Virus record (IMG/VR): IMGVR_UViG_3300021602_000153
Span: 1-23,324 of that record
Reading direction: 5' to 3' (one strand)
Length of the DNA stretch: 23,324 nt
Source: a virus
Position 1 is the first letter of the stretch. Each line of letters opens with the position of its first letter. Below, piece after piece: positions 3 through 13,753 of this stretch. Both the position numbers and the translations under genes were made by a program. The notes below the pieces were generated by a model. That model worked only from the letters and a program-made list of their open reading frames with translations, was not told where the DNA came from and made no database searches.

Positions 3-1556
3 GGTGCGGTTAATACACTACCGGAGATTGATGGCGTCAATCGAAGACTACCGTTGGTGGTTAACGTTAACGGAATTCTTTACCCATCACTGGCCATGGA
101 AATATTACGTGTTGCTGCTGGTGATACTACATTCCAAGTTAAGCTAAGTGAACTGGGGGTGGATAAGATGCGTATCAAAAAGTTCGGCCCCATTACCACG
201 GACCACTTGGGTCGTATTTGGATTGATTGGAGTCAAAAACCTATTAACATTAGCATTATGGATTTACCTGAAAATCTAAATGGTGCCATTGTTATAGTTG
301 GGCCAGCCGCTGCTGGCATCAGTAATCCGGTGCCCACTGCGGTAGGCGCCCAGTTTCCACATTACGTGCAGGCAGTTGTAGCTGGTACTTTACTAAACAA
401 AATTAATATCACTCGCCCGGATTTTGCAGATGGTGCAGAAATCTTGACATTAGTGATACTGAGCGTTATACTATTATTACTATCGAGGTGGACTTATGTT
501 GGAATTCTTGCTAGCGTTATTGTGCTTGGGGGCTGTGTTTACGGCAGCAGTTATCTTTATGATAATTATCGTTGGCTTTTGGATATCACTGGCATCGTTG
601 CTGGTCTTGTTATTGTTCTTTTCCATGCTTATATCGTTAGGTTTGTAGGTGAGTTCCTACAAAAGCAACAGATTAAAAAACAATTCGGCAGTTATCTGTC
701 ACCAGACTTAGTAGCTAAGTTACAACGACAACCAGAATTATTACGTCTAGGTGGAGAAGAACAAGAACTTACAATTATATTTACTGACGTTCGTGGCTTT
801 ACTGCGATATCAGAACATTACGGACGTGATGTGCAGGGTCTTACTAAAATAATGAACCGTTACATGACTGCTATGACTAAGAAGATTTTAGAAAACAATG
901 GAACACTAGACAAATATATCGGAGATGCCCAGATGGCATTTTGGAACGCACCGCTTGATGACGTTAACCACGCTAAGAACGCAGTACGTACAGCATTGCA
1001 AATGATGGAAAGTTTAGATGAATTTAATAAAGAAGTTACAGCAGAAGGTGTTCCAGCTTTTGGTATGGGTTTGGGAATTAATACTGCCACCGTTGTGGTG
1101 GGCAACATGGGCAGTGATCAACGGTTTGACTATACTTGTCTTGGCGACGGTGTTAATTTGGCGTCAAGACTCGAGGGCCAGACTAAGCCGTACGGCGTCA
1201 AAATTATTCTCGGCCCAATAACAGCAGAGCAAGTTAAAGATGAATACTTTGTGCTTGAGCTAGATAAGATTGCGGTAAAGGGCAAGAAAGTTGGCGTTAA
1301 TATCTTCACTGTGCTTGACCTATATCCCGGTGCGCATGGTGAATATGAAATGGGGCGCGGAGATCATGAAGAAATGTTAACAGCATATCGCAATCGAGAA
1401 TTCGAACACGCTATATTTTTATGTGATAGTTTGATAGGCGAATTCGATGGACAGATGGATGCTTACTATGCAATGTGGAAAGATCGCTGTAAAGAAATGA
1501 AGCTGAGTAATCTGCCACACAATTGGGACGGCACATACGTATCAACAAGCAAATAA
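3..1556 (+). CDS. CHASE2-domain class III adenylate cyclase, 5' end outside window
   Basis: Membrane sensor enzyme predicted to make cAMP from ATP. The frame is open from base 3, and the residues before the TTG at 54 (GAVNTLPEIDGVNRR) continue a CHASE2 domain, so the true start lies upstream of the window. Order: end of the extracytoplasmic CHASE2 sensor, about three membrane segments (bases ~440-640), a short linker, then the cyclase domain. Counting from base 3, the metal-binding aspartates are D262 (FTDVRGFT) and D308 (KYIGDA). Adenine-selecting K304 and D376 are present, as are transition-state N385 and R389 (GDGVNLASR), so the domain looks active as an adenylate rather than guanylate cyclase. 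The last ~120 residues form a tail that recurs as a separate gene at 8290-8643. In bacteria CHASE2 cyclases often sit beside FecR-domain genes, and one lies at 5022-6140 here. The signal sensed is unknown. Confidence 0.9.
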   Translation, partial: GAVNTLPEIDGVNRRLPLVVNVNGILYPSLAMEILRVAAGDTTFQVKLSELGVDKMRIKKFGPITTDHLGRIWIDWSQKPINISIMDLPENLNGAIVIVGPAAAGISNPVPTAVGAQFPHYVQAVVAGTLLNKINITRPDFADGAEILTLVILSVILLLLSRWTYVGILASVIVLGGCVYGSSYLYDNYRWLLDITGIVAGLVIVLFHAYIVRFVGEFLQKQQIKKQFGSYLSPDLVAKLQRQPELLRLGGEEQELTIIFTDVRGFTAISEHYGRDVQGLTKIMNRYMTAMTKKILENNGTLDKYIGDAQMAFWNAPLDDVNHAKNAVRTALQMMESLDEFNKEVTAEGVPAFGMGLGINTATVVVGNMGSDQRFDYTCLGDGVNLASRLEGQTKPYGVKIILGPITAEQVKDEYFVLELDKIAVKGKKVGVNIFTVLDLYPGAHGEYEMGRGDHEEMLTAYRNREFEHAIFLCDSLIGEFDGQMDAYYAMWKDRCKEMKLSNLPHNWDGTYVSTSK

Positions 1557-2603: not shown

Positions 2604-3592
2604 TAGTAACAGATAATTTACCGGAGCAGATTAATGGCGTGGTTACGACCTACAAAAATATTGAGGCTTATGCGATTCGGGACAACTATCGTGTTGTATA
2701 TCTTGATCCCGGGCGGTTCCGCTATGTTGATTGCCCTGGCTACAACCAAGTCAAGATTGCCTTTCCGAGGAAGGTGGGCAAGATACTTGAGGAGATCAAT
2801 CCGGATCATATCCACATCGCCACGGAGGGTCCTGTTGGTTTGTGTGTTAGACAATATCTTGACAAACACAATTATAGGTACAATACTGCTTATCATACTA
2901 AGTTTCCGGAAGGACTTAGAAAACTTTTTGGAATACCTGAAGCCCTTACTTGGCCTTTAATAAGATGGTTTCATAAACATAGCGGTAAAGTATTGACCAC
3001 TACGGAAAGCATGGTAGAAGAATTACGAGCCCATGGATTTGATGGTGAACTAGTGTCTTGGACTCGTGGGGTTGATCGTGAGATTTTTAATCCAAGCAGA
3101 AGAATAAGGGCCAACGAACAAACAGTATTGGTGTGTGTTGCCAGGGTGAGTAAAGAAAAGAATCTTGAAGATTTCTTTAAATTGGACTTTCCTAATTGTC
3201 GTAAGATAATGGTGGGAGACGGGCCTATGTTGTCAACCTATAAGAAGCAATATCCCGAAGTAGAGTTTGTAGGTTTAAAAACAGGAGCAGAGTTGGCTGA
3301 ATACTATGCTAATGCTGATGTATTTGTATTTCCAAGTCAGTGGGAAACATTTGGTATTGTTATGATAGAAGCTATGGCATGTGGAACTCCTGTTGCTGCT
3401 TATCCATGCCAAGGTCCAAAAGATGTTATTGATCAAGGCATAACAGGCTACATGGATGAATCATTATCTACTGCTACATATCGTTGTCTAGGTTTGAGTA
3501 GGGATCGGGTAGCAGTAGGAAGTCAGCGTTGGAGCTGGGAATATGCCTGGGAAATATTTAGGGCACATCTTGTTCCTGCAAAAATGGACTAA
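2585..3592 (+). CDS. GT4-family glycosyltransferase
   Basis: Predicted retaining GT-B glycosyltransferase that moves a sugar from a nucleotide-sugar donor to a lipid or glycan acceptor. The N-terminal half opens with ILIVTDNLPEQINGVV, the acceptor-side loop typical of GT4 enzymes. The C-terminal half has the VCVARVSKEKNLE strand, the VGDGP turn and the donor-site signature ending in ETFGIVMIEAMACGTPVAA, which contains the E-x7-E pair. At 335 aa it is a little short for the family but both Rossmann halves are present. It follows the LpxH-like gene, a pairing seen in bacterial glycolipid clusters. Bases ~2700-2820 are visibly richer in G+C than the rest of the gene. The stop overlaps the end of the convergent gene at 3589 by 4 bases, so no terminator separates them. 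Confidence 0.85.
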   Translation: MQKTILIVTDNLPEQINGVVTTYKNIEAYAIRDNYRVVYLDPGRFRYVDCPGYNQVKIAFPRKVGKILEEINPDHIHIATEGPVGLCVRQYLDKHNYRYNTAYHTKFPEGLRKLFGIPEALTWPLIRWFHKHSGKVLTTTESMVEELRAHGFDGELVSWTRGVDREIFNPSRRIRANEQTVLVCVARVSKEKNLEDFFKLDFPNCRKIMVGDGPMLSTYKKQYPEVEFVGLKTGAELAEYYANADVFVFPSQWETFGIVMIEAMACGTPVAAYPCQGPKDVIDQGITGYMDESLSTATYRCLGLSRDRVAVGSQRWSWEYAWEIFRAHLVPAKMD

Positions 3593-3900
3593 CTACTACC
3601 ACCACTGTCTGCGCTGTCATTTTTCTTATTAATTACTTCTTCAGCTTCTACACGTTCTGCTTCAATAGTTTTGCCGCGTAGATGCAATACAGTATTGACC
3701 TTTTGGTTAAGTCTAATCAAATCATTATCCAACATACGTATACGGTCGATCAAAGCGATAAGAACTGTATTAGCATCCGAAATAACTGGCTTGATTTCTG
3801 ATGTAGCCCACGACCATACATATTTTATAATGGCACCTAATCCCACTGCCGCAACAATAGGGAATCCATACTTACTAATTAAATCTGCTATATTGTCCAT
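3589..3900 (-). CDS. Small holin-like membrane protein (paralogue of 4079-4360)
   Basis: A 103-aa protein with one N-terminal membrane segment (about residues 12-33, GFPIVAAVGLGAIIKYVWSW), then an amphipathic helix and a charged tail rich in Glu, Lys and Ser. It matches the 93-aa protein at 4079-4360 over its first ~75 residues: shared LIS..GFPI.AA start, then ALI/ALDxR, an xxMxxDxIRI/L pattern and a closing VxxxLxL. Short one-helix proteins of this layout are common in aquatic myoviruses, and some are called holins or holin-like. A role in inner-membrane permeabilisation or lysis timing is inferred, not shown. Its ATG overlaps the stop of the preceding 59-aa gene as TAATG. It is the last gene of a three-gene block. 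Confidence 0.75.
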   Translation of the reverse strand: MDNIADLISKYGFPIVAAVGLGAIIKYVWSWATSEIKPVISDANTVLIALIDRIRMLDNDLIRLNQKVNTVLHLRGKTIEAERVEAEEVINKKNDSADSGGSS

Positions 3901-4079
3901 TATTCATATCCTCTTACAAATTTTTCTATAGGGTCCAGTTTAACTAATTGTCGCTTGCCGTCAATGTCAGTAAACTTAAACAAGTCACCCTCTTTCCATC
4001 CTATTGTATGAACATCAAGTTCTTCGTCTAAGATAATTTTGTCGTCACTTAAATCCCAAGTGTAGTCATAGTATAACAT
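3900..4079 (-). CDS. Hypothetical 59-aa acidic protein
   Basis: Small gene between two holin-like genes, joined to both by one-base TAATG overlaps, which strongly supports it as real. The protein starts MLYYDYTWDLSDDKI and ends VKLDPIEKFVRGYE. It is acidic with several aromatic residues, has no membrane segment or cysteine, and its alternating pattern (GDLFKFTDIDGKRQLVKLD) suggests a small beta-barrel or beta-sandwich. I do not recognise the family. Its position suggests expression with, and possibly a partner role for, the flanking membrane proteins. Confidence 0.75.
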   Translation of the reverse strand: MLYYDYTWDLSDDKIILDEELDVHTIGWKEGDLFKFTDIDGKRQLVKLDPIEKFVRGYE

Positions 4080-4360
4080 TAGTCTCTCCTAGCGTCTGAC
4101 TTACCATCGGCACGAGCAATACGATCTACGTCTGGTTTTAATCCTAGCGCATTTGATACTACTGAGTCTATGCGTATAACATCGTGATTCATTGTCTTAA
4201 CACGATTGTCTAATGCTGTAATGATACCGGCCATGCCCTTAACAGCTGACAATACTCCGGCTAGTAATAGTTTTATAGTAAGATATACAAAGTATCCACC
4301 TGCTATAGCAGCAGCAATAGGGAATCCTAGGTCACTTATAAGTTTGAATATTTCATTCAT
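4079..4360 (-). CDS. Small holin-like membrane protein
   Basis: A 93-aa protein with a membrane-buried N-terminal part (residues ~12-45, GFPIAAAIAGGYFVYLTIKL onward) and a C-terminal amphipathic helix with the pattern ALDNRVKTMNHDVIRID, ending in a charged tail. It is a paralogue of the protein at 3589-3900. This arrangement is familiar from small proteins of marine and freshwater T4-like phages, sometimes grouped with holins, but no biochemical role is established from sequence. It is the first gene of a three-gene block. A ribosome site (AGGAA) lies just before the ATG, and a CTAAATA motif lies 28 bases upstream of it (4389-4395), matching a phage late-promoter geometry. Confidence 0.8.
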   Translation of the reverse strand: MNEIFKLISDLGFPIAAAIAGGYFVYLTIKLLLAGVLSAVKGMAGIITALDNRVKTMNHDVIRIDSVVSNALGLKPDVDRIARADGKSDARRD

Positions 4361-4401: not shown

Positions 4402-5025
4402 TTAATTCCTAACGTAACTGTAACTCCCACAAGTCGTGCATTGAATCGCCATCGATCCTGTATTCGCTTGCGTGGGGTTGGTTTGCTGTATTGTCACTGT
4501 AGCACCAGCTGTGCCATTTAATCCAAGAGAAAAACTTTTATCTCCAGATCCAGATTGCGTAGAGTTAATCGTATTGCCGCTGTTAACAGTACCAGATTGG
4601 CCTGTTATGTTTAATGTATGATTGCCGGTACCGGCTTGATTCGCAGTTATAGAATTTGCATTGCCCACTAGATTTTGTATTGATGTTGTATGATTGCCAA
4701 CTCCATCTTGAAATAGTATTACACTATTACTATATCCATTGGGTATCTCAACTGCGGCTTTTTTATCACCTGTGCCCTGCTGTGTAATTCTCACATAGTT
4801 GGCATCACTGCCAGCAGTAGTTCCGGTAGTGGGAAGGTTGGCATTTACCCAAGTTTCAGGGGGTAAGTTTGCACCTATCGCAATTCGAGCATAATGATTG
4901 CCATCTGATTGTGTAATGTTAATGGAGTTATTATCCCCCACTTGATCTATGTAGACATTGGGATTCCACTGAGTACTTTGTGCCCAGACGGTAAATGGAA
5001 ACAATAATAGTAAAAGTAATTTCAT
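4402..5025 (-). CDS. Secreted curlin-repeat (CsgA/CsgB-like) protein 2
   Basis: Predicted substrate of the CsgG pore that could assemble into extracellular amyloid. A signal peptide (MKLLLLLLFPFTVWA, cleavage after A15) is followed by YIDQVGDNNSINITQ and then imperfect curlin-type units built on Asn, Gln, Gly, Ser and Thr, such as ITQQGTGD, NQAGTGNHTLNITGQSG and STQSGSGDKS. These keep the Q-x-G-x-x-N spacing of curlin repeats. The C-terminus is unusual: CTTCG gives a CxxC pair at residues 196 and 199, then SYSYVRN. At 207 aa it is longer than E. coli CsgA (151 aa). The ATG overlaps the FecR stop as ATGA, so the two are coupled. Whether it acts as fibre subunit or nucleator cannot be decided; the distinct tail would fit a CsgB-like role. 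Confidence 0.8.
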   Translation of the reverse strand: MKLLLLLLFPFTVWAQSTQWNPNVYIDQVGDNNSINITQSDGNHYARIAIGANLPPETWVNANLPTTGTTAGSDANYVRITQQGTGDKKAAVEIPNGYSNSVILFQDGVGNHTTSIQNLVGNANSITANQAGTGNHTLNITGQSGTVNSGNTINSTQSGSGDKSFSLGLNGTAGATVTIQQTNPTQANTGSMAIQCTTCGSYSYVRN

Positions 5026-6140
5026 TTTTGCACAATATTAATAACTGTATTGCCACCTGAATTAATACGATTACGTATCTCAACTGATCCTTGTATTTGT
5101 GTTAACACACTATTTTGTCGAGTAGGGGTTGTCACACATTGTTTATTTCCGCCATCATCACGACATAGAGTGACAACGGGTTCGTCAAGTGCTACTGTAA
5201 CACCAGATGTAGGAACATAGTCTGGTAATAACTTAGGAGCACCTGATATAGGCTTTAATAAGTTAGCTGTTTGCGCTGATAATTGTGCGTTAACTATGTC
5301 CAATAAGTTAACTAAAAAATCTTGTTCCAATAAGTTTTGGCTGAGTCGGTCCTTGAACACTTCTGCTTGTGCTATATCAATAGCGTTGTTTAGTCCTTCT
5401 GCCTTGAGAAAATCTACATCTAATGCGCCTAACTTTAACGAACCCTTTGCATTTTTATCTTCTTGCAATTCTTTCGGAGGATTAACGATTAACATATTGC
5501 TAATTTGATCTTCTGTTAATTTAAGTATGACAGGAGGTCTAGGTTTAAAATCTCTACTGTCTACTTTGGTTGCTTGAAATGGTTTGTTCATTACGATAAA
5601 TCCTACTTCTGTAGTAACTGATATTTCGCCTGTCTTACAATCACGTTCTACGTCACGCCATCCAAATGGACAGCTTGGTAATAGAATAATAGTGCTTCGA
5701 CCAAACTCATCTACCGTGGCACTAAAATCTGTTCCACGAACACCAATGGTGGCAACCGGAGTATTAACTGACACTGATTGCGGATTGTTCTTGGCAATTT
5801 GCCCACTGGCATAACGTACTGTGCCGTGTGCTACATTAACAGCTAACTTACCACCCTTGGTAGTAGCAGGGTCATATACAAAGTCATCTATAACTAAACG
5901 ACTATTTTCGTTTACCAGTACCTTTGTATCATCATCAAAGGTTATTCCCACTTTGCCCTGGGTTGTCCGAACCGCATCTTCCATCTCCACTTTTGTCCCC
6001 TTCTTCCCTTCCAGATTTTCCTTCTTGCGTTGTATATTTGGAACTGTGTTGGTAGTTTCTGTGACTGTCCCTATCGCGGCGTCGGATTTCTGCGATGTAC
6101 TCACTAAGCAAACCAATAGTACGACCATCCATAATTTCAT
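5022..6140 (-). CDS. Secreted FecR-domain protein
   Basis: Predicted periplasmic or exported protein of 372 aa. A signal peptide (MKLWMVVLLVCLVSTSQKSDA) is followed by a FecR domain at about residues 55-140: VRTTQGKVGITFDDDTKV, then a beta-rich segment and the hallmark NTPVATIGVRGTDF. The rest is a long helical and then beta-rich C-terminal part with no family I know. The last residues, NSGGNTVINIVQK, look like half a curlin repeat. FecR proteins usually work as periplasmic partners in signalling, and in bacteria they often accompany CHASE2 cyclases; one is at 3-1556. I chose the ATG at 6140 over the GTG at 6143 because GGAGG sits 4 bases before the ATG and only 1 base before the GTG. Its stop overlaps the next curlin gene. 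Confidence 0.85.
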   Translation of the reverse strand: MKLWMVVLLVCLVSTSQKSDAAIGTVTETTNTVPNIQRKKENLEGKKGTKVEMEDAVRTTQGKVGITFDDDTKVLVNENSRLVIDDFVYDPATTKGGKLAVNVAHGTVRYASGQIAKNNPQSVSVNTPVATIGVRGTDFSATVDEFGRSTIILLPSCPFGWRDVERDCKTGEISVTTEVGFIVMNKPFQATKVDSRDFKPRPPVILKLTEDQISNMLIVNPPKELQEDKNAKGSLKLGALDVDFLKAEGLNNAIDIAQAEVFKDRLSQNLLEQDFLVNLLDIVNAQLSAQTANLLKPISGAPKLLPDYVPTSGVTVALDEPVVTLCRDDGGNKQCVTTPTRQNSVLTQIQGSVEIRNRINSGGNTVINIVQK

Positions 6141-6152
6141 CACTCCTCCGAC

Positions 6153-6944
6153 TTATCTTGTATTGCTATTAACGGTAAATGTATTAGTGCTACCAACAGA
6201 CTTAATGTTTATAATACTGTCTGAACTAGTGCCACCCTGTGTGATGCTGGTTGTATTGCCTGATCCATTATAGTCTAATTTAACAGAATGTCCATTAGTT
6301 GCACCACCGCTTTGTGTGATTCCGGTAGTATTACTAGCACCAACAGTAGTGATATCAACGGTACCCTTATCGCCAGTCATGTTAAGTGTTGTGCTATTGC
6401 CACCACCACCTGTTTGACTAATTGTAGTGAGTGTAGAGTTAGCGTTAACCGTGGCAATTAAACTATTGTTTGCCCCTCCCGAGGTAACAGCAGTAAGACT
6501 GTTCCCAGACCCTAACACGTTAACATTAGCATTGGCTGTGTTGCCAGTTTGATTAATACTGATATAATTGCTTTCGCTAACTCCAGATCCAGAATTATTA
6601 CTGTTAATGACAGCAGTGGCGTTGTTACCAGTTACACCGTATATAACGGTAGGATTATTCATGCCATTACCGGTAGTAGTTTTTACACCCAGGCTCAGCA
6701 TATTGCCACTACCAATTTGATTGATGGTAATTTGATTGTTGTCTCCATAGATAGTACTGGGAGTACTATTACCTGACCCTATTCCCTGTATACCACGGAC
6801 AACGTTGCCTGCGCCGTCTTGCGTTATATTGATGGTAGCGTTGTCTCCGCTTTGATCAATATAGATACTATTGTCGGCTGCGATTGATAAACTAGCAAAT
6901 CCGATTAGTAGTAATGCCAATATTTTTTTTATTATTGTTGTCAT
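6153..6944 (-). CDS. Secreted curlin-repeat (CsgA-like) protein 1
   Basis: Predicted main curli-like amyloid subunit, 263 aa. A signal peptide (cleavage near SIA/AD, residues 22-23) is followed by YIDQSGDNATINITQDG, nearly the same opening as the second curlin at 4402-5025. About ten imperfect repeats follow with the curlin pattern of Gln/Asn and Gly spaced by short beta strands: ITINQIGSGNML, ISINQTGNTANANV, TTISQTGGGGNSTTL, TGITQSGGATNGHSV and TSITQGGTSSDSIINI. The mature protein is almost all Gly, Ser, Thr, Asn, Ile and Val with very few charges, as expected of functional amyloids. It follows csgG by 27 bases, with a ribosome site (AAGGAAG) and a small hairpin in the gap. Confidence 0.85.
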   Translation of the reverse strand: MTTIIKKILALLLIGFASLSIAADNSIYIDQSGDNATINITQDGAGNVVRGIQGIGSGNSTPSTIYGDNNQITINQIGSGNMLSLGVKTTTGNGMNNPTVIYGVTGNNATAVINSNNSGSGVSESNYISINQTGNTANANVNVLGSGNSLTAVTSGGANNSLIATVNANSTLTTISQTGGGGNSTTLNMTGDKGTVDITTVGASNTTGITQSGGATNGHSVKLDYNGSGNTTSITQGGTSSDSIINIKSVGSTNTFTVNSNTR

Positions 6945-6971: not shown

Positions 6972-7766
6972 TTATTGGGTTGGAGTTTCCTTAAAATCCC
7001 AAACTCCTCTTCGTTGACCTTCTTTAATCAACTCCACTACCGATGCTTCTATAGTGGTTTTAACTGCCAATGTTCCCGGCTCGTTAATCGTTAGACCTGA
7101 TTCGGCCTCAAATGCTTGTGTTCCATTATCTAGAAACTTTAAGACGGCTATACTATCTGATGTGCTATATACTGTTTTAGTAACTGTTACTGCCATCAAT
7201 ACCTTACCTGTATTAACACTTATAGCCCGTAGACTTATAGTAACAATGTCTTTACTATATTGAGTTTGTGGTCCAATGCCTAACCACCTAAACGCAGATC
7301 CACCAGACTCAGTGCTACTATCATATCCTATAATTCCACCTTCTATCAGCATACCAGCAAACATTAATGGCATTAATGGTTTAGCTTCTTTACCTTCATA
7401 CGATTCTCTCATTTGTCGTATTAGCTGTCGTTCACGAGTAAGTCCATCCAATGCCACCCGTTCTACTACCTCAAACCATCTCCCATTTCCTACATCTTGT
7501 AGGGCTTTAATTAGGAATGTGACACCACCTTGTGTTACAGCATTACTTAAACTGGCAATACCAGGAGTGGGTTTACGTTGTCCAGTTTGGTCAGCGAATG
7601 CGTATACAGCCACGACAACAGGTCTTGGATTAGCAGGAGGTGATATTGTATCAAACTCTTTTTGCATTTTATTCACAGCTACCTCTGGTTTATATTCCTT
7701 TCCCATTTTCTGTGAAATAGCACAACCTGACAATAACATGACTAATAGTAAGGCTAATAATTTCAT
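6972..7766 (-). CDS. csgG: CsgG, outer-membrane curli secretion pore lipoprotein
   Basis: Predicted nonameric outer-membrane channel for export of curlin subunits (type VIII secretion). The lipoprotein signal ends in LLSGC, so C15 would be lipidated. Family landmarks align along the whole length with E. coli CsgG: VVVAVYAFADQTGQRKP, an NGRWFEVVER segment, RERQLIR, the IEGGIIGYDS strand, the GSAFRWLGIG hairpin, the TQY and VSLRAISVNTGKVL strands, and a C-terminal GQRRGVWDF. It has 264 residues against 277 in E. coli. At the constriction loop, E. coli KPYPASNF is replaced by KPTPGIASL, so the Tyr and Phe of the eyelet appear to be Thr and Leu. The start codon overlaps the CsgF stop as ATGA, as expected for stoichiometric pore partners. 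Confidence 0.95.
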   Translation of the reverse strand: MKLLALLLVMLLSGCAISQKMGKEYKPEVAVNKMQKEFDTISPPANPRPVVVAVYAFADQTGQRKPTPGIASLSNAVTQGGVTFLIKALQDVGNGRWFEVVERVALDGLTRERQLIRQMRESYEGKEAKPLMPLMFAGMLIEGGIIGYDSSTESGGSAFRWLGIGPQTQYSKDIVTISLRAISVNTGKVLMAVTVTKTVYSTSDSIAVLKFLDNGTQAFEAESGLTINEPGTLAVKTTIEASVVELIKEGQRRGVWDFKETPTQ

Positions 7767-8227
7767 GGGCTAGATACTGGAAATTGAAATGACCCTAGTG
7801 GTATAGTCACACTAGTAGTGTTGCCCGTAGTATCAGTAACCTGCATATTAATATTGCTACCATCTTTGCTCCAAAAGATACTGTTGCCCTCAAAGTTTAA
7901 TGTACCTTGATTTGTGCCGCCATTGGCAAACATAGCAGTGGCCAAGTTTTGACTAATCTGTGCGTAGATCCGACTTTCTAAATTATTAAGAAATTTGGCA
8001 ATATTAGTGCTCTGCTTGTCTGCCTTTTCTTTATCTAGGGCAGCTTGTATATCTTTCTTAACCTGAGCTTGACGAGTAAATTCTTGGTTCTCTATAGTCA
8101 GGACATGGGCACTATAGCCGTTTCCAGTAAAACTGGGTGACTTAAACTGATAGTCTGCTATCGGGGTCGCGACGGCTTGCAAGGAGATCGCGGTAAAACA
8201 TAGCAGAGTTGTAATTATTTTTATCAT
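7763..8227 (-). CDS. csgF: CsgF, curli secretion accessory protein
   Basis: Predicted exported partner of CsgG; in E. coli CsgF plugs into the CsgG barrel and places the nucleator at the cell surface. A signal peptide ends near AVA/TP (residue 20). The mature start YQFKSPSFTGNGYS matches the FQFRNPNFGGNP segment of E. coli CsgF, which enters the pore. A helix (FLNNLESRIYAQISQNLATAMF) and a beta end (SNINMQVTDTTGNTTSVTI, compare QLQLNVTDRKTGQTSTIQV) complete the fold. I chose the ATG at 8227, not 8317, because AGGAG lies 7 bases before it and the signal peptide starts exactly there; the longer version would add 30 residues unlike a leader. Length is 154 aa, close to the family's ~138. It overlaps csgG by 4 bases. 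Confidence 0.9.
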   Translation of the reverse strand: MIKIITTLLCFTAISLQAVATPIADYQFKSPSFTGNGYSAHVLTIENQEFTRQAQVKKDIQAALDKEKADKQSTNIAKFLNNLESRIYAQISQNLATAMFANGGTNQGTLNFEGNSIFWSKDGSNINMQVTDTTGNTTSVTIPLGSFQFPVSSP

Positions 8228-8289
8228 ACTCTCGCTCCTACAAGTATTTAACAAAAAATTACAACCAGTTAAGTTGTCACATAATATGT

Positions 8290-8643
8290 CTAACCCTTGG
8301 GTACAATGCCAGTCCAAGCGGTATCTGGTTCGGATTCGATATACCCAAGTATTCGTGTTCGTAACACTTCGTAGAATGAATCAATTTGTTTGCCCCAAGA
8401 ACCCATTAGGGTATCAATTGCTGTAATACAAAAATGCCAATTTCTTTTACGATAATTATCCATTAAATCTTGGTGTAACTTTGTATAAACTTCTACTTTG
8501 GCAAACTCCGTTAATGGTAAGTTTTCCACCACACTATATGCGGTAATGGGATTGCTACTACGTATGGTTACTGTATCTAGTTCAAGAACTATATATTTTT
8601 CTTGTAGTTTTGATACCTCAGCGGTGCCGAAAATTATATTCAA
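8290..8643 (-). CDS. Stand-alone cyclase C-terminal tail protein
   Basis: A 117-aa protein that aligns from end to end with the last ~120 residues of the CHASE2 cyclase at 3-1556 and lacks the catalytic part. Shared points: IIxG at the start, the YxVLELD strand (YIVLELDTV against YFVLELDKI), a YRxR motif in the middle, LxGxxxxQxDxxY, and a final helix before a Trp-containing end. The first residues match the beta strand that closes the cyclase fold, so this looks like a domain cut at a sensible boundary. It starts at TTG with AGGAG 7 bases before, so it looks actively translated rather than a dead fragment. It is the first gene of the curli operon. It may bind or compete with the cyclase tail or a shared partner; this is inference. 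Confidence 0.75.
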   Translation of the reverse strand: MNIIFGTAEVSKLQEKYIVLELDTVTIRSSNPITAYSVVENLPLTEFAKVEVYTKLHQDLMDNYRKRNWHFCITAIDTLMGSWGKQIDSFYEVLRTRILGYIESEPDTAWTGIVPKG

Positions 8644-8668
8644 TTCGTATCTCCTGTTAAATAATTAT

Positions 8669-8675
8669 CTAAATA
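8669..8675 (+). promoter_or_regulatory. Candidate late promoter, CTAAATA
   Basis: ATCTAAATATAA lies 30 bases before the ATG of the phosphoesterase gene at 8706, in a 62-base divergent gap. The core is the same as at 4389-4395, 13805-13811, 17478-17484 and 20347-20353. I see no convincing promoter on the minus strand here for the curli operon. Confidence 0.45.
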
Positions 8676-8705
8676 TAACTACCTACCATAAAAAGATGAA
8701 CATAT

Positions 8706-9497
8706 ATGAATTTTAATTTTGACCTTATTAGTGATTTACATAGGGAAACCTGGCCTAATTTTGATTGGACCGGACAACCAACTGCACAGTATTGCATTGT
8801 AGCAGGTGATATCGCTAGAGATAGATCCCTTGTTGTAGATACTTTGAAACACCTTAGTGAAGTTTATACCGGGGTCTTTTATATTGACGGAAACGACGAG
8901 CATAAAGACCATGCGGAAAACTTGAATCGTAGCTACGCTGAATTAGCTGATCTTATTGGCCCTATGAAGAATGTGGTATATATGCAGGATAATGTGGTTG
9001 TTATGAACGGTGTCGCCATTTTGGCCACTAATGGATGGTGGAGTTATGACTTCGACCCTAACTTATCAGTAGACCAATCATTATTCTGGGTTCAACAGAA
9101 GGATGGAATTAGTCAGCAGGCTGCAATTAATATTAATGGAACAGCATATCGAGATGCAGGGTATTTGGTTAACAGCGTTTCTAAATTACAAACTTATAAT
9201 GATGTAAAATCTATAATTATCGTCACACATACAGTACCAACTCCAGAAATTATACAACATGATCTAGAACTAAAAGATACATGGCGATATAATTCCATGG
9301 GAAACAATTACGTAAATGCTGCTCTTGATTCAGATACTGAACGAAAAATTAAACTATGGTGTTTTGGCCATTATCATAGACCGGTAGATACAGTAATAGA
9401 TAGGGTTAGATATGTCAGTAATCCTCGCGGACGAGGAAATACTGAATATTCTCAATTTGCATACTACCCCAAAAGGATATCAGTTCCGGTTAATTAG
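8706..9497 (+). CDS. Calcineurin-like metallophosphoesterase
   Basis: Predicted cytosolic metal-dependent phosphoesterase of 263 aa; the substrate could be a nucleotide, nucleic acid or phosphoprotein. Signature motifs appear in order: LISDLHRE (residues ~7-14), VAGDIARD (~32-39), DGNDEHK (the GNH[DE] position, here GNDEH, near 60), VTHTVP (~178) and FGHYHRP (~222). The Asn-Asp-Glu-His order in the third motif is a slight departure from the usual Asn-His. It is unlike the LpxH-like enzyme at 1676-2476 and is not its copy. It stands alone on the plus strand, divergent from the curli operon and overlapping the end of clpS by 8 bases. A CTAAATA motif lies 30 bases upstream. Confidence 0.8.
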   Translation: MNFNFDLISDLHRETWPNFDWTGQPTAQYCIVAGDIARDRSLVVDTLKHLSEVYTGVFYIDGNDEHKDHAENLNRSYAELADLIGPMKNVVYMQDNVVVMNGVAILATNGWWSYDFDPNLSVDQSLFWVQQKDGISQQAAININGTAYRDAGYLVNSVSKLQTYNDVKSIIIVTHTVPTPEIIQHDLELKDTWRYNSMGNNYVNAALDSDTERKIKLWCFGHYHRPVDTVIDRVRYVSNPRGRGNTEYSQFAYYPKRISVPVN

Positions 9498-9798
9498 ATT
9501 CCGGTTCTATTTGAATCTTCAGTGGCATATTTACTGAACGTGCAGCCATTGAAACCTCAATTCCTTTTTGTTCTGCGATTTCATAAGGTAACACAGCTAC
9601 GACTGCGGAGCCGATTTCATGTATATCTTGTGTAATTTTTACAGCAGTATCTGGCGTATAATTAAAGAAGTTCATTAATGATTCAACTACGAATTCCATT
9701 GTTGTTCCGTCGTCATTTAAATAGATAACTTTAAACAGTGGAGGCTCTTTAATTTCCTGATTAACATCAGGTCTTGTGATTACATCTGCTTGTGACAT
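9490..9798 (-). CDS. clpS: ClpS, N-degron adaptor for Clp protease
   Basis: Predicted adaptor that delivers proteins with N-terminal Phe, Leu, Tyr or Trp to ClpAP. At 102 aa it matches the bacterial protein in length. The binding pocket is intact: N28-D29-D30 in VIYLNDDGTTMEF, gatekeeper M34, and H60 in DIHEIGSAVVAVL. The flexible N-terminal tail needed to engage ClpA is also present (residues 1-20). A working adaptor encoded by a phage would redirect the host's ClpAP, since no clpA or clpP is seen here. It is the last gene of the protein quality-control cluster (ClpX, bS21, Hsp20, ClpS), with its own leader carrying a TAAATA motif and a hairpin. Confidence 0.9.
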   Translation of the reverse strand: MSQADVITRPDVNQEIKEPPLFKVIYLNDDGTTMEFVVESLMNFFNYTPDTAVKITQDIHEIGSAVVAVLPYEIAEQKGIEVSMAARSVNMPLKIQIEPESN

Positions 9799-9858: not shown

Positions 9859-10305
9859 CTACGATTCGTATGCAATAAAAATAGTTTTAGGCTGAAGTGC
9901 TTCGGGAATATTACGCTCTAACCGTACAGTTAAAATGCCATTTTTCGACGATGCATTGGTTACTTCAACATAATCAGCTAGACTAAACGTGCGAACAAAA
10001 TTGCGAGCACTAATACCGTTATGCGAATATGTGTAACCTTCAGGAAGTTCTTTGTCCTGCCTTTTGCCAGTAACAATAAGAGTATTGTCCTTGACTTCAA
10101 CATTAACCTCACCCTCACTAAATCCAGCAGTGGCTACTTGAACTTCGAAAGTATCTAATCCGGTTTTAATAATGTTGTATGGGGGATAGTTAGTTCCTTC
10201 GTTACCGTGATGTTCAATTTGATTCAAAATACGACTGAATAATTGATCTACGCCGATAGCGTTGCGAGTGAATGGATTAAAATCCAAAGTGGTGATTTTT
10301 GTCAT
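9859..10305 (-). CDS. Hsp20 / IbpA-like small heat-shock protein
   Basis: Predicted ATP-independent holdase chaperone, 148 aa, with an alpha-crystallin domain at about residues 42-140. Diagnostic points: NYPPYNI before the domain, a central AGFSEGEVNVEV and LIVTGKR, the ISARNFVRTFSLADYVEV stretch shared with IbpA-type proteins, and the closing GILTVRLERNIPE. The C-terminal I-x-I-like motif needed for oligomer assembly is present (TIFIAYES). Small heat-shock proteins are common in T4-like phages of aquatic bacteria, where they may protect folding structural proteins. A good ribosome site (AAAGGAGAAAAC) precedes the ATG. A TAAATAC motif lies 65 bases upstream. Confidence 0.92.
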   Translation of the reverse strand: MTKITTLDFNPFTRNAIGVDQLFSRILNQIEHHGNEGTNYPPYNIIKTGLDTFEVQVATAGFSEGEVNVEVKDNTLIVTGKRQDKELPEGYTYSHNGISARNFVRTFSLADYVEVTNASSKNGILTVRLERNIPEALQPKTIFIAYES

Positions 10306-10418: not shown

Positions 10419-10640
10419 TTAGTAGAATTTCTTGGGAAGTTCTTGGGCAGCTAGTCGCTTGCGTGAGCGTGATTTAGCTGCACCTTTCTTACGCTTACGT
10501 TCAGTGGTGGGTTTCTCATATGTTTCCCTGGCTCGTAGTTCGTCCAACAAGCCTGAGTCTTGTATTTTCTTTTTAAATTTCCTAAGTGCCTTTTCCACGT
10601 TTCCGTCATTGACAAATACTGTGTTTCCGTAAAGCTTCAT
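10419..10640 (-). CDS. rpsU: Ribosomal protein bS21
   Basis: Predicted small-subunit ribosomal protein of 73 aa, close to the 71 aa of E. coli bS21. The core [22 protein letters not shown] and [12 protein letters not shown] match the bacterial protein strongly, and the C-terminus is basic. bS21 sits near the anti-Shine-Dalgarno end of 16S rRNA and helps initiation. Phage-encoded bS21 is known from aquatic and very large phages and is thought to replace the host copy in ribosomes to favour phage messages. The ATG overlaps the ClpX stop as ATGA, so the two proteins are made from one message. Confidence 0.95.
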
Positions 10641-11827
10641 TCATTCTCCCTTGCGAGTGTTGCCGGAGTATTTACTAGTTTTGACGTAATTGCCACTGAT
10701 AGTATACTCTGTTTGCGATACTTAGGTAGGTCGAACATATGCGGTAATAGTATGCGTTCTAACTCTGTGTGCAGTCCACGAGCACCTGTTTTAGTTTTAA
10801 GAGTACGTTCTGCTATGAGATTTAGCGAATCTTTTTCAAAATTAAGTTCAACGCCATCTTGGTTAAACAACCACTTATATTGCCCAACGTAATTGTGTTT
10901 AACATCTGTCAATATGCTGATTAATTGGTCTTTGGTCAGACCTTGTAAATTTACTAAGTTACCAAACCTACCAACAAATTCCGGTATCATGCCATATTTG
11001 ACCAAATCATCTGGTGATGCCGCCATATTCTCCAGGGATTCTTCCTTGACAATATCAGCATTAAATCCCATGGTCGTTCCCTGCACTCTACTCTTTACAA
11101 TTTTATCAAGTCCAACAAATGCCCCACCGGAAATGAATAGGATATTAGTAGTATCAATCTCAACAGTGGTATCACCTCGTCGTATACCGGGAGGACTAAT
11201 CTTAACCTTGGTACCTTCGATTAATTTAAGCAAGGCCTGTTGCACACCTTCGCCAGATACGTCCCGGCTGACAGTAGCACTTTCGCTTTTGCGAGCAATT
11301 TTATCTATTTCATCTAAAAAGATAATACCGCGTTGTGTGCGCTCTACGTCCGAGTCAGCATTTTGGTATAATCTTAATATAACAGAGTCAACATCATCAC
11401 CGACATATCCCGCTTCGGTAAGGGTAGTTGCATCGGCTATGGCAAACGGTACGTTCAAATATTGTGATACAGTCTTTACCAACAGGGTTTTACCAGTCCC
11501 GGTGGGCCCAACCATTAATATATTTGCTTTGTCAATTTCGTTTTCAGTATTACTGATACGTTTATAGTGGTTGGTAATAGCCACTGCCAATACTATCTTA
11601 GCGCCGTCTTGACCCACTACGTATTGATCAAGATATTGTTTAATTTCACGGGGGTCTGGTATTTCCATTGTGGTGATGGATTTAGTTGTCCCTTGTTTAT
11701 TTTTTATTAGTTTACCGCAACGTTCGACGCAGTCGCTACAGATAGCAACGTTATCCTGCACGATAAAGGTAGTAACAGCATTCTTATGTTTATTACAGAA
11801 TGAGCAATGGTTAATTTTTTCCAACAC
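10637..11827 (-). CDS. clpX: ClpX, AAA+ unfoldase
   Basis: Predicted hexameric unfoldase, alone or with ClpP. Order: zinc-binding domain with C8, C11, C30 and C33; Walker A GPTGTGKT at 107-114; pore loop GYVG at 140-143; Walker B IIFLDEID at 168-175; pore-2 region [16 protein letters not shown]; and the sensor-2 region [13 protein letters not shown]. The ClpP-contact loop reads MGF at 253-255 in place of IGF, which should still bind ClpP. The RKH substrate loop of E. coli ClpX reads RRG here (~216-218), so tag choice may differ. The 396 aa are slightly fewer than in E. coli (424). Start is GTG at 11827 or TTG at 11824; AGGA lies just upstream. No clpP is seen, so it may pair with host ClpP. 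Confidence 0.95.
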
Positions 11828-11833
11828 GTTGTC

Positions 11834-13753
11834 CTAGGTCGATTGTGATTTAAGTTTTATTGAAATACGTTCTCTTTCAATATCACTTAATAAGTCAGGA
11901 TCGTACTCCCCTGACCCAATTTTTTCAATAAGATGATTTATATAGGCATCATCGTATACATAACTATCGCTAAGATTTTTATTTGTCTTTATCCAGTTAA
12001 CTCCATTGTATTTGTATAATGCACTGGGTAATACATCGACACGCAGAAACATATCACCTTTTTCAGCTGTGTTGGGAAATGCAATACCAAATCCTTTCAT
12101 TTCCCCTGCTTTTAAATCATTGTCTGCTTCCAGACCTAATTTGATATTGATTAGATCTCTATCACTTAAATTTAATTTGTCGACATGCTCAGAATGATGC
12201 CAGGGTAATTCTGATATCAATCCTTGATTATATTGCAATACATATTCTTTGAATGTGTTACCAGGGTTTTCTCCTTTCCAAACTTCCATTGCATGTTTTT
12301 GCAGATCGTTGCCGTATGGTTCAATATCTTCAAATAGATTTGTTTTAGCAATTAAGTTACCAGTTGGCAATTCTTCACTGACTGTTTCTTTTATCTGTGT
12401 AATTTGCTCATCAGTTAACGGCCCATCATCTGGCTCATATACTCTACTTTTCTCAACAATGGGTGCCGACGCAACTGGTTCCCTACGTTTTCTTTTCCAT
12501 ACACGAACCCTATGTTTTTTAATACCAGGTTGGTATTTGCGTGTTTTTTCTTTAGCTGGCGCGACTGGAACAGATATAGCAGCAGGAGCAGGTAATATTT
12601 TGCGAACCCAAGTCATACTTTCTGTTGCAGCAAGCAGCATCATAACCGCTAATGGATCAAATACAGCAACAATTATCATAATAACCCAGCGTACTGCACG
12701 TTCTAACATGCTTTGATCTGCGGTATCACCGTATACTAGTTCAGCAATGTATTTGATTGGCCCAACTTCTACTTCCAATTTACGATACTCTACTTCCAAA
12801 GTATATTTCTTTTGTGTTAGTGCCTCAATTTCCAAGTTGGCTGTTTTTATCTTTTCTTGCTGCTCATTTACAAGTACTTCAACTGAAGCAGTATCACCTT
12901 TGCCTAATTGATTACGCAGACGATCAATCAATTTGTTCGATTCAGCTACTTGTGTTTCTACTGTCTTTCGGACTCTTAGTATTTCGTCACGAGCGGCACG
13001 AATAATAGGATCTTTGTTGGCTTCTCCTAACTTAGTAATTACTGCCGTACGTTCTGTTTCACGGGCAGATTTCCAAATAGTAACTGCTCGTGCGGTACCG
13101 GTACCCCATTCTCCGTCCGCGTTAGCCCCAACTAAGGCTTGTGCCTTTTGTATTTCTTTAGCATCAATGAACTTTTGCAATTGTGAAAGTTGCTCGTCAA
13201 TTTTGGCAACTTGATCGCTATACAGCTTTGTTTGCCCATCAATAATCTTTTGCTGTTCGTCAATAACTGGCTGTACCCGAGATAATGCGCTGTCAATGCG
13301 CCCTTGTTCTGTTTGAATTTGGCTGTTTACATTGGCATCTGCGCCTGTGCCGGATGTTTCTAATGTCTTAGCACGTTCTTCAGCTTTGGTTACAATTTCA
13401 GCTTGACGTTTAAGTTCCACTGTGATACGTTGTATCTGGGCGGCGTTCTCTTGACCTGCGCCTACTTGTTCAATATGTGCTTTACTGAGAAAGCCAAATA
13501 TGCCCATACTGGTAAGGAACATCAAGATCATCACAGCAGAGACAAGGTAAACCTTCATTGATAATTTAACTTTGTGCCAGAATTCATGAAGCCAAACTGT
13601 TATTGATAATTTAGCTGTTCCAAGTATTACACCCATGATGACAATGGATATTGGGGCGCCGGCAAATATTGCAGCTAACCCGGCAATAGAATAAAATTCT
13701 GCAATAACACTAAGACATAGTGCTACTGCCAGCATAAGATAGGTTAGAAACAT
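11834..13753 (-). CDS. Large membrane protein with coiled coil and peptidoglycan-binding-like insert
   Basis: A 639-aa protein of a type I associate with aquatic T4-like phages; function unknown. Three membrane segments lie in the first ~95 residues, ending MILMFLTSMGIFGFLSKAHI. Residues ~100-350 are a long helical coiled coil. A fourth segment is at ~375-400 (WVIMIIVAVFDPLAVMML), followed by a basic linker and a ~200-residue cytoplasmic part. Within the coiled coil, near residue 205, IQKAQALVGANADGEWGTGTARAVTIW matches the core of PG_binding_1 domains (Q-x-x-L ... DGxxGxxTxxAV), which would face the periplasm. That could anchor the protein to the cell wall or signal envelope state for lysis timing; both are inference. 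ClpX follows 6 bases after its stop. Confidence 0.75.
   Translation of the reverse strand: MFLTYLMLAVALCLSVIAEFYSIAGLAAIFAGAPISIVIMGVILGTAKLSITVWLHEFWHKVKLSMKVYLVSAVMILMFLTSMGIFGFLSKAHIEQVGAGQENAAQIQRITVELKRQAEIVTKAEERAKTLETSGTGADANVNSQIQTEQGRIDSALSRVQPVIDEQQKIIDGQTKLYSDQVAKIDEQLSQLQKFIDAKEIQKAQALVGANADGEWGTGTARAVTIWKSARETERTAVITKLGEANKDPIIRAARDEILRVRKTVETQVAESNKLIDRLRNQLGKGDTASVEVLVNEQQEKIKTANLEIEALTQKKYTLEVEYRKLEVEVGPIKYIAELVYGDTADQSMLERAVRWVIMIIVAVFDPLAVMMLLAATESMTWVRKILPAPAAISVPVAPAKEKTRKYQPGIKKHRVRVWKRKRREPVASAPIVEKSRVYEPDDGPLTDEQITQIKETVSEELPTGNLIAKTNLFEDIEPYGNDLQKHAMEVWKGENPGNTFKEYVLQYNQGLISELPWHHSEHVDKLNLSDRDLINIKLGLEADNDLKAGEMKGFGIAFPNTAEKGDMFLRVDVLPSALYKYNGVNWIKTNKNLSDSYVYDDAYINHLIEKIGSGEYDPDLLSDIERERISIKLKSQST

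Follow-up and report, generated by a model that had tools for sequence, protein, structure and literature searches.

The 23.3-kb virus record analysed here (IMG/VR record IMGVR_UViG_3300021602_000153; all 23,324 nucleotides are referred to as the window) has T4-like content and encodes a 117-aa protein whose entire length shows genuine homology to the C-terminal lobe of class III cyclases of the CHASE2 type. We will refer to it as the "free tail". It represents a real, old family of phage proteins, intact in many freshwater phages, and is a fixed member of a phage ClpX-S21-Hsp20-ClpS-phosphoesterase neighbourhood; in this phage, its connection with curli and with the cyclase is incidental. Phage ClpS, Hsp20, bS21 and curli-cyclase clusters are known, and in the free tail a known enzyme lobe stands alone and is catalytically dead. 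An unnamed and widespread phage protein family is hereby identified together with its origin in a signalling enzyme, whose C-terminal lobe was detached and retained for another job, and a tempting but wrong curli link is corrected.

The Free Tail Gene

The gene lies at positions 8290..8643 on the minus strand and starts with TTG, as supported by the ORF call, BLASTP, the relatives, the profile and the AlphaFold2 model. An AGGAG ribosome-binding site (8651..8655, minus strand), conserved in near relatives, is situated 7 nt before this start, bearing out the own ribosome site and TTG start read earlier from the sequence. The start position is common to the relatives, as ATG, GTG or TTG, and a purine-rich ribosome site recurs before it in most of them. 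The csgF start is found 60 nt downstream, and the upstream neighbour is a divergent phosphoesterase gene. The description of the gene as leading an operon holds by position only. Promoter and late-promoter scans found no signal above chance; a terminator scan likewise yielded nothing above chance. The divergent gap between the phosphoesterase and tail starts spans 8644-8705 in the window and measures only about 24-27 nt in many relatives, where it is nearly invariant (gatacatatttaaaagga...) and is possibly a shared control element.

Homology and Predicted Fold

Profile and HHalign comparisons agree on a whole-length match to the last ~120 residues of the cyclase, as the sequence-only reading had observed. 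By BLASTP, the free tail matches residues 382-478 of the window cyclase with 24% identity and 54% positives over 98 residues (E 2e-12). A profile made from 54 free tails only, with no cyclases, matches the same cyclase at E 3e-20, the C-terminus of the Melnitz cyclase at E 2e-11 and the last ~115 residues of the cyclases in 74 of 80 bacterial cyclase loci, HMM positions 2-115 aligning to the cyclase C-termini; the cyclase of HTVC008M lacks the tail by this profile. HHalign of free tails against bacterial cyclase tails returned a probability of 99.8 over 115 columns, and of 14,262 decoys, shuffled or reversed, none was a match at E<=10. In the window, the homologous lobe comprises residues 382-500 of the cyclase ORF (1197..1553, plus strand), as delimited by BLASTP, profile and structure prediction.

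The AlphaFold2 model of the free tail, built on a 54-sequence alignment, reached a pLDDT of 89 and a pTM of 0.85, and consists of beta-alpha-beta-beta, then three helices, then a last strand (predicted elements E2-5, H7-14, E18-27, E33-39, H44-65, H69-79 and H88-103). Residues 384-483 of the window cyclase are predicted, with mostly high local confidence, to hold the same elements in the same order (E384-386, H388-394, E399-406, E415-421, H428-446, H450-460 and H469-483), so that the free protein is the whole C-terminal lobe and not the appended tail alone. As modelled, it is formed by the last beta-alpha-beta-beta of the catalytic domain plus a three-helix TPR-like tail. By Foldseek it matches a CHASE2 cyclase of viral origin (TM 0.69, 116 columns) and also two stand-alone, uncharacterised phage proteins from BFVD, A0A6J7WKR8 and A0A6J5T5F8, which have the same fold and a similar length (TM by target 0.89 and 0.78), show no difference from the free tail and are likely members of its family. 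Sequence and fold searches of the PDB gave no significant match to the tail among solved structures.

The model supports a tail that behaves as an autonomous folded module. In this sense, the suggestion that it is a protein-interaction module finds backing in the confident autonomous fold and in its conservation as a stand-alone protein, but not in the curli or cyclase partner with which it had been proposed to interact. The helical tail of CHASE2 cyclases, for which no solved structure was found, is predicted to fold and to be inherited as an independent module, and its binding partner therefore becomes a testable question for phages and for the many bacteria with such cyclases. No family in Pfam, NCBIfam, PHROG or PADLOC covers the tail protein (curated cut-off or E<0.001), only weak, chance-like matches being returned, and the literature searched contained no paper on it.

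Residues Lost and Kept

CHASE2 class III cyclases (PF05226 + PF00211) and the free tail are homologous over the full length of the latter and share its predicted element order, but the free tail stands alone, without the CHASE2 domain, the membrane part or the catalytic residues, which agrees with the earlier claim that these were all lacking. The metal-binding Asp pair and the Asn/Arg helix are missing, as the free tail begins at cyclase residue 382, after both. A Lys in the beta7-beta8 loop of class III cyclases positions the triphosphate (PMC2576301; Lys1065 in PMC9223806); this loop is VKGK in the cyclases compared (K-G-K at 0.89-1.00), and its lysine, the one catalytic residue that the segment of the free tails would cover, is replaced in them. 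Judged on the Asp pair, the Asn/Arg helix and the VKGK Lys, the free tail is not a class III nucleotide cyclase.

Other positions are common to free tails and cyclase tails, namely His57, Tyr64, Trp69, Tyr91, Arg97, Trp110 and Gly112, including the W-x-G, and C72, L79, G81 and D88 are typical of free tails. The W-x-G end is present in the branch of free tails to which the window belongs. Another branch (L079-L086, L180-L200, L207, L215) ends after about 100-125 aa, without W-x-G, and adjoins an exonuclease in front, not the phosphoesterase.

A Conserved Phage Family

A search for stand-alone homologues, as suggested by the sequence-only reading, found 83 relatives in viral contigs, of which 80 loci were kept. 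The free tail is an intact, separate gene in 80/80; in each, a stop codon in the same frame lies shortly before the gene, and the start position is unchanged. Values of dN/dS between 0.04 and 0.18 in 17 pairs of free tails indicate that the family is under purifying selection. In a tree of 145 rows and few columns, made by a quick method and rooted at the midpoint, the free tails group in a single clade (SH-aLRT 99), separate from the tails of phage and bacterial cyclases, which points to one origin for the family; since they cluster apart from all cyclase tails, the free tail of the window is not derived from the window cyclase, and a copy of the local cyclase tail was ruled out on this basis. 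On this evidence, the family consists of a cyclase C-terminal lobe (CHASE2, class III) that is encoded as a protein of its own.

It could be argued that the gene is what is left of a deleted or duplicated cyclase gene, as the free tail covers exactly the C-terminal part of a cyclase. We regard this as extremely improbable: intact frames with their own start in 80 loci, the low dN/dS and a single old clade unrelated to the local cyclase copy describe a conserved stand-alone protein, with which the remnant alternative falls, and the decay in relatives that had been named as its mark was not seen.

In bacteria, sampled as 229 gammaproteobacterial and 240 alphaproteobacterial genomes, the free-tail profile was matched in 134/469 genomes, nearly always in cyclase-length frames; cyclase tails were found in 94/240 alphaproteobacterial (~39%) and 40/229 gammaproteobacterial (~17%) genomes, and free tails in none of the 469. 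The short bacterial frames examined as candidate free tails were frameshifted or contig-edge cyclases. A tblastn search of cultured phages with two family members found no free tail.

The Curli Cluster is not a Fixed Neighbour

The free tail of the window lies directly before csgF, and the cyclase is found 7 kb away, an arrangement shared with a few relatives. On the minus strand follow CsgF (7763..8230, its start taken at the ATG at 8230), CsgG (6972..7766) and two curlin-repeat proteins (6153-6944 and 4402-5025) with a FecR protein between them (5022-6143); the CHASE2 class III cyclase (54..1556, plus strand) has its N-terminus cut off by the contig end, and its relative in contig L002 is 683 aa long. 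Phage curli (T8SS) clusters with FecR and adenylate cyclase have been published (PMC9599517, PMC7029224, PMC9004378), and this part of the window is thus already known: as far as the accessible text of these papers goes, CsgF, CsgG, the two curlin-repeat proteins, FecR and the CHASE2 cyclase are shared with the published clusters, whereas the free tail, present in the window, is not described in it. Two paralogous proteins of ~100 aa with one apparent membrane helix each are encoded beside the cluster (3589-3900 and 4079-4360, minus strand); they had no Pfam match, and their family occurs in 45/80 CsgG phage loci, with at least two copies in 40; in Melnitz and HTVC008M it immediately precedes csgF. 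They may correspond to holin-like proteins or to those that other authors termed histidine kinases.

From this arrangement it had been proposed that the free tail tunes the phage's own cyclase or couples the cyclase to curli output, a reading also favoured by the co-occurrence of curli and cyclase in phages, both in large records and in PMC9599517. The linkage data weaken it to the point that we consider it very unlikely. Counted both ways, csgF is near in 7/80 free-tail loci, the other 73 having no curli nearby, and among 80 CsgG loci the free tail is present in 15 and the cyclase in 52, and most phages with curli and cyclase have no free tail; it is likewise missing from Melnitz and HTVC008M, two curli phages in culture. 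Fixed linkage to csgG, which the sequence-only reading had named as a check, was thereby ruled out, and the free tail is not a curli operon component by consistent csgG or csgF linkage. Furthermore, 20 large tail-bearing records (78-347 kb) include a class III cyclase in 6 and none in 14, and CsgG in 7 and none in 13; the 154-kb record of L004 has neither. Curli clusters are located directly downstream of the free tail in some phages. Of 80 clpS loci, 12 have csgF; the stretch between clpS and csgF varies, and of the three or more kinds of content distinguished there, one has no tail. The tail is missing from 31/46 clpS-csgF intervals.

Linkage to clpS and a Candidate Proteostasis Role

The fixed neighbour of the free tail is clpS, and not curli or the cyclase as had been supposed. 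In the window, ClpS (9490..9798), Hsp20 (9859..10305), ribosomal protein bS21 (10419..10640) and ClpX (10637..11827) are all encoded on the minus strand. The free tail lies downstream of clpS and on the same strand in 79/80 of its loci, the exception (L071) having no clpS in the locus, and hsp20 is present in 76, clpX in 59 and a phosphoesterase in 68 of the 80; in the reverse test, a free tail is found in 63/68 phage clpS loci whose downstream sequence exceeds 3 kb, and is missing from five with room for it. These figures are to be read as counts and not as probabilities, given the fragment records, the contigs shared by both searches and the kinship of contigs. In three contigs (L040, L344, L345) the clpS stop and tail start overlap by 4 nt as ATGA, and in L066 both genes abut; the phosphoesterase is missing from all four. 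Phage ClpS, Hsp20 and bS21 have been described (PMC9723584, PMC7824862, PMC6102473), and the free tail sits in such a bS21/Hsp20/Clp neighbourhood; the accessible text of these papers does not mention the tail protein. In most loci, the gene before clpX (11834-13753, minus strand, in the window) encodes a protein of 639 aa that has membrane helices at its N-terminus and a long coiled stretch; its only match, a weak one, was to a PHROG virion structural protein.

Given its overlap with clpS, its fixed place in the ClpX-S21-Hsp20-ClpS series and its TPR-like helices, our best guess, held tentatively, is that the free tail is a TPR-like interaction protein of cyclase origin that was repurposed to serve this phage proteostasis module as a partner. 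It would act as a non-enzymatic protein-binding platform made alongside ClpS, the likeliest form being an accessory adaptor or a chaperone-like partner, and during infection it might present or protect client proteins in a phage proteostasis programme; where clpS and the tail overlap, as in some phages, a balanced synthesis of both is suggested. Its retention without curli or cyclase is consistent with such a role, as are the homology, the fold, the single clade, the selection and the lost catalytic Lys. On the other hand, genes of T4-like phages may be neighbours because they share their timing and not their function, the five roomy clpS loci and the tail-less clpS-csgF intervals do without the free tail as L071 does without clpS, and for a protein descended from a cyclase, a role involving cyclic nucleotides is an obvious alternative.

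Alternatives Involving Cyclic Nucleotides

Next in rank after the proteostasis partner, and distinctly doubtful, is a trans-acting regulator of class III cyclases, in which the free lobe would either dock on a CHASE2 cyclase of the host or phage or compete with its tail for the partner of that tail, changing cAMP in the infected cell. The full-length homology, the core residues H57, Y64, W69, Y91, R97 and W110 common to both kinds of tail and the frequency of such tails in possible host classes (the alpha- and gammaproteobacteria counted above) point in this direction. However, the VKGK loop is gone and other positions are switched, 14 of the 20 large tail-bearing phage records do not themselves encode a class III cyclase, and the linkage is to clpS and not to cyclase. 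A more specific version seems to us improbable, in which the phage makes the free lobe, along with a phosphoesterase and ClpS, to inhibit host CHASE2 cyclases or to act as their decoy; if true, the phage would silence or reprogram host cyclic-nucleotide signalling with a piece of the targeted enzyme. Mimicry of the anti-phage cyclase of Pycsar was discarded, as the tail matches no PycC model.

The Neighbouring Phosphoesterase

The gene divergent from the free tail encodes a calcineurin-like metallophosphoesterase with intact motifs (8706..9497, plus strand), which had no sequence match in the PDB. The free tail could be its partner subunit, perhaps acting on phosphorylated small molecules or cyclic nucleotides, although we judge this unlikely. 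The phosphoesterase is near in 68/80 tail loci, and its metal motifs are kept in 86/87 distinct phosphoesterases of tail-bearing loci and lost in the 5 distinct ones of tail-less clpS loci, L287 being left aside as its contig ends before the tail's place; but this coincident loss concerns related loci and could go back to a single event, tails are present in records without a close phosphoesterase relative, including a 90-kb fragment, and in some lineages clpS and the tail are directly joined without it. The motifs lost in the tail-less clpS loci (L326, L329, L331, L332, L333, L337) are DxH, GD and GNxEH. ClpP is encoded nearby in four of these few loci (L329, L331, L332, L337).
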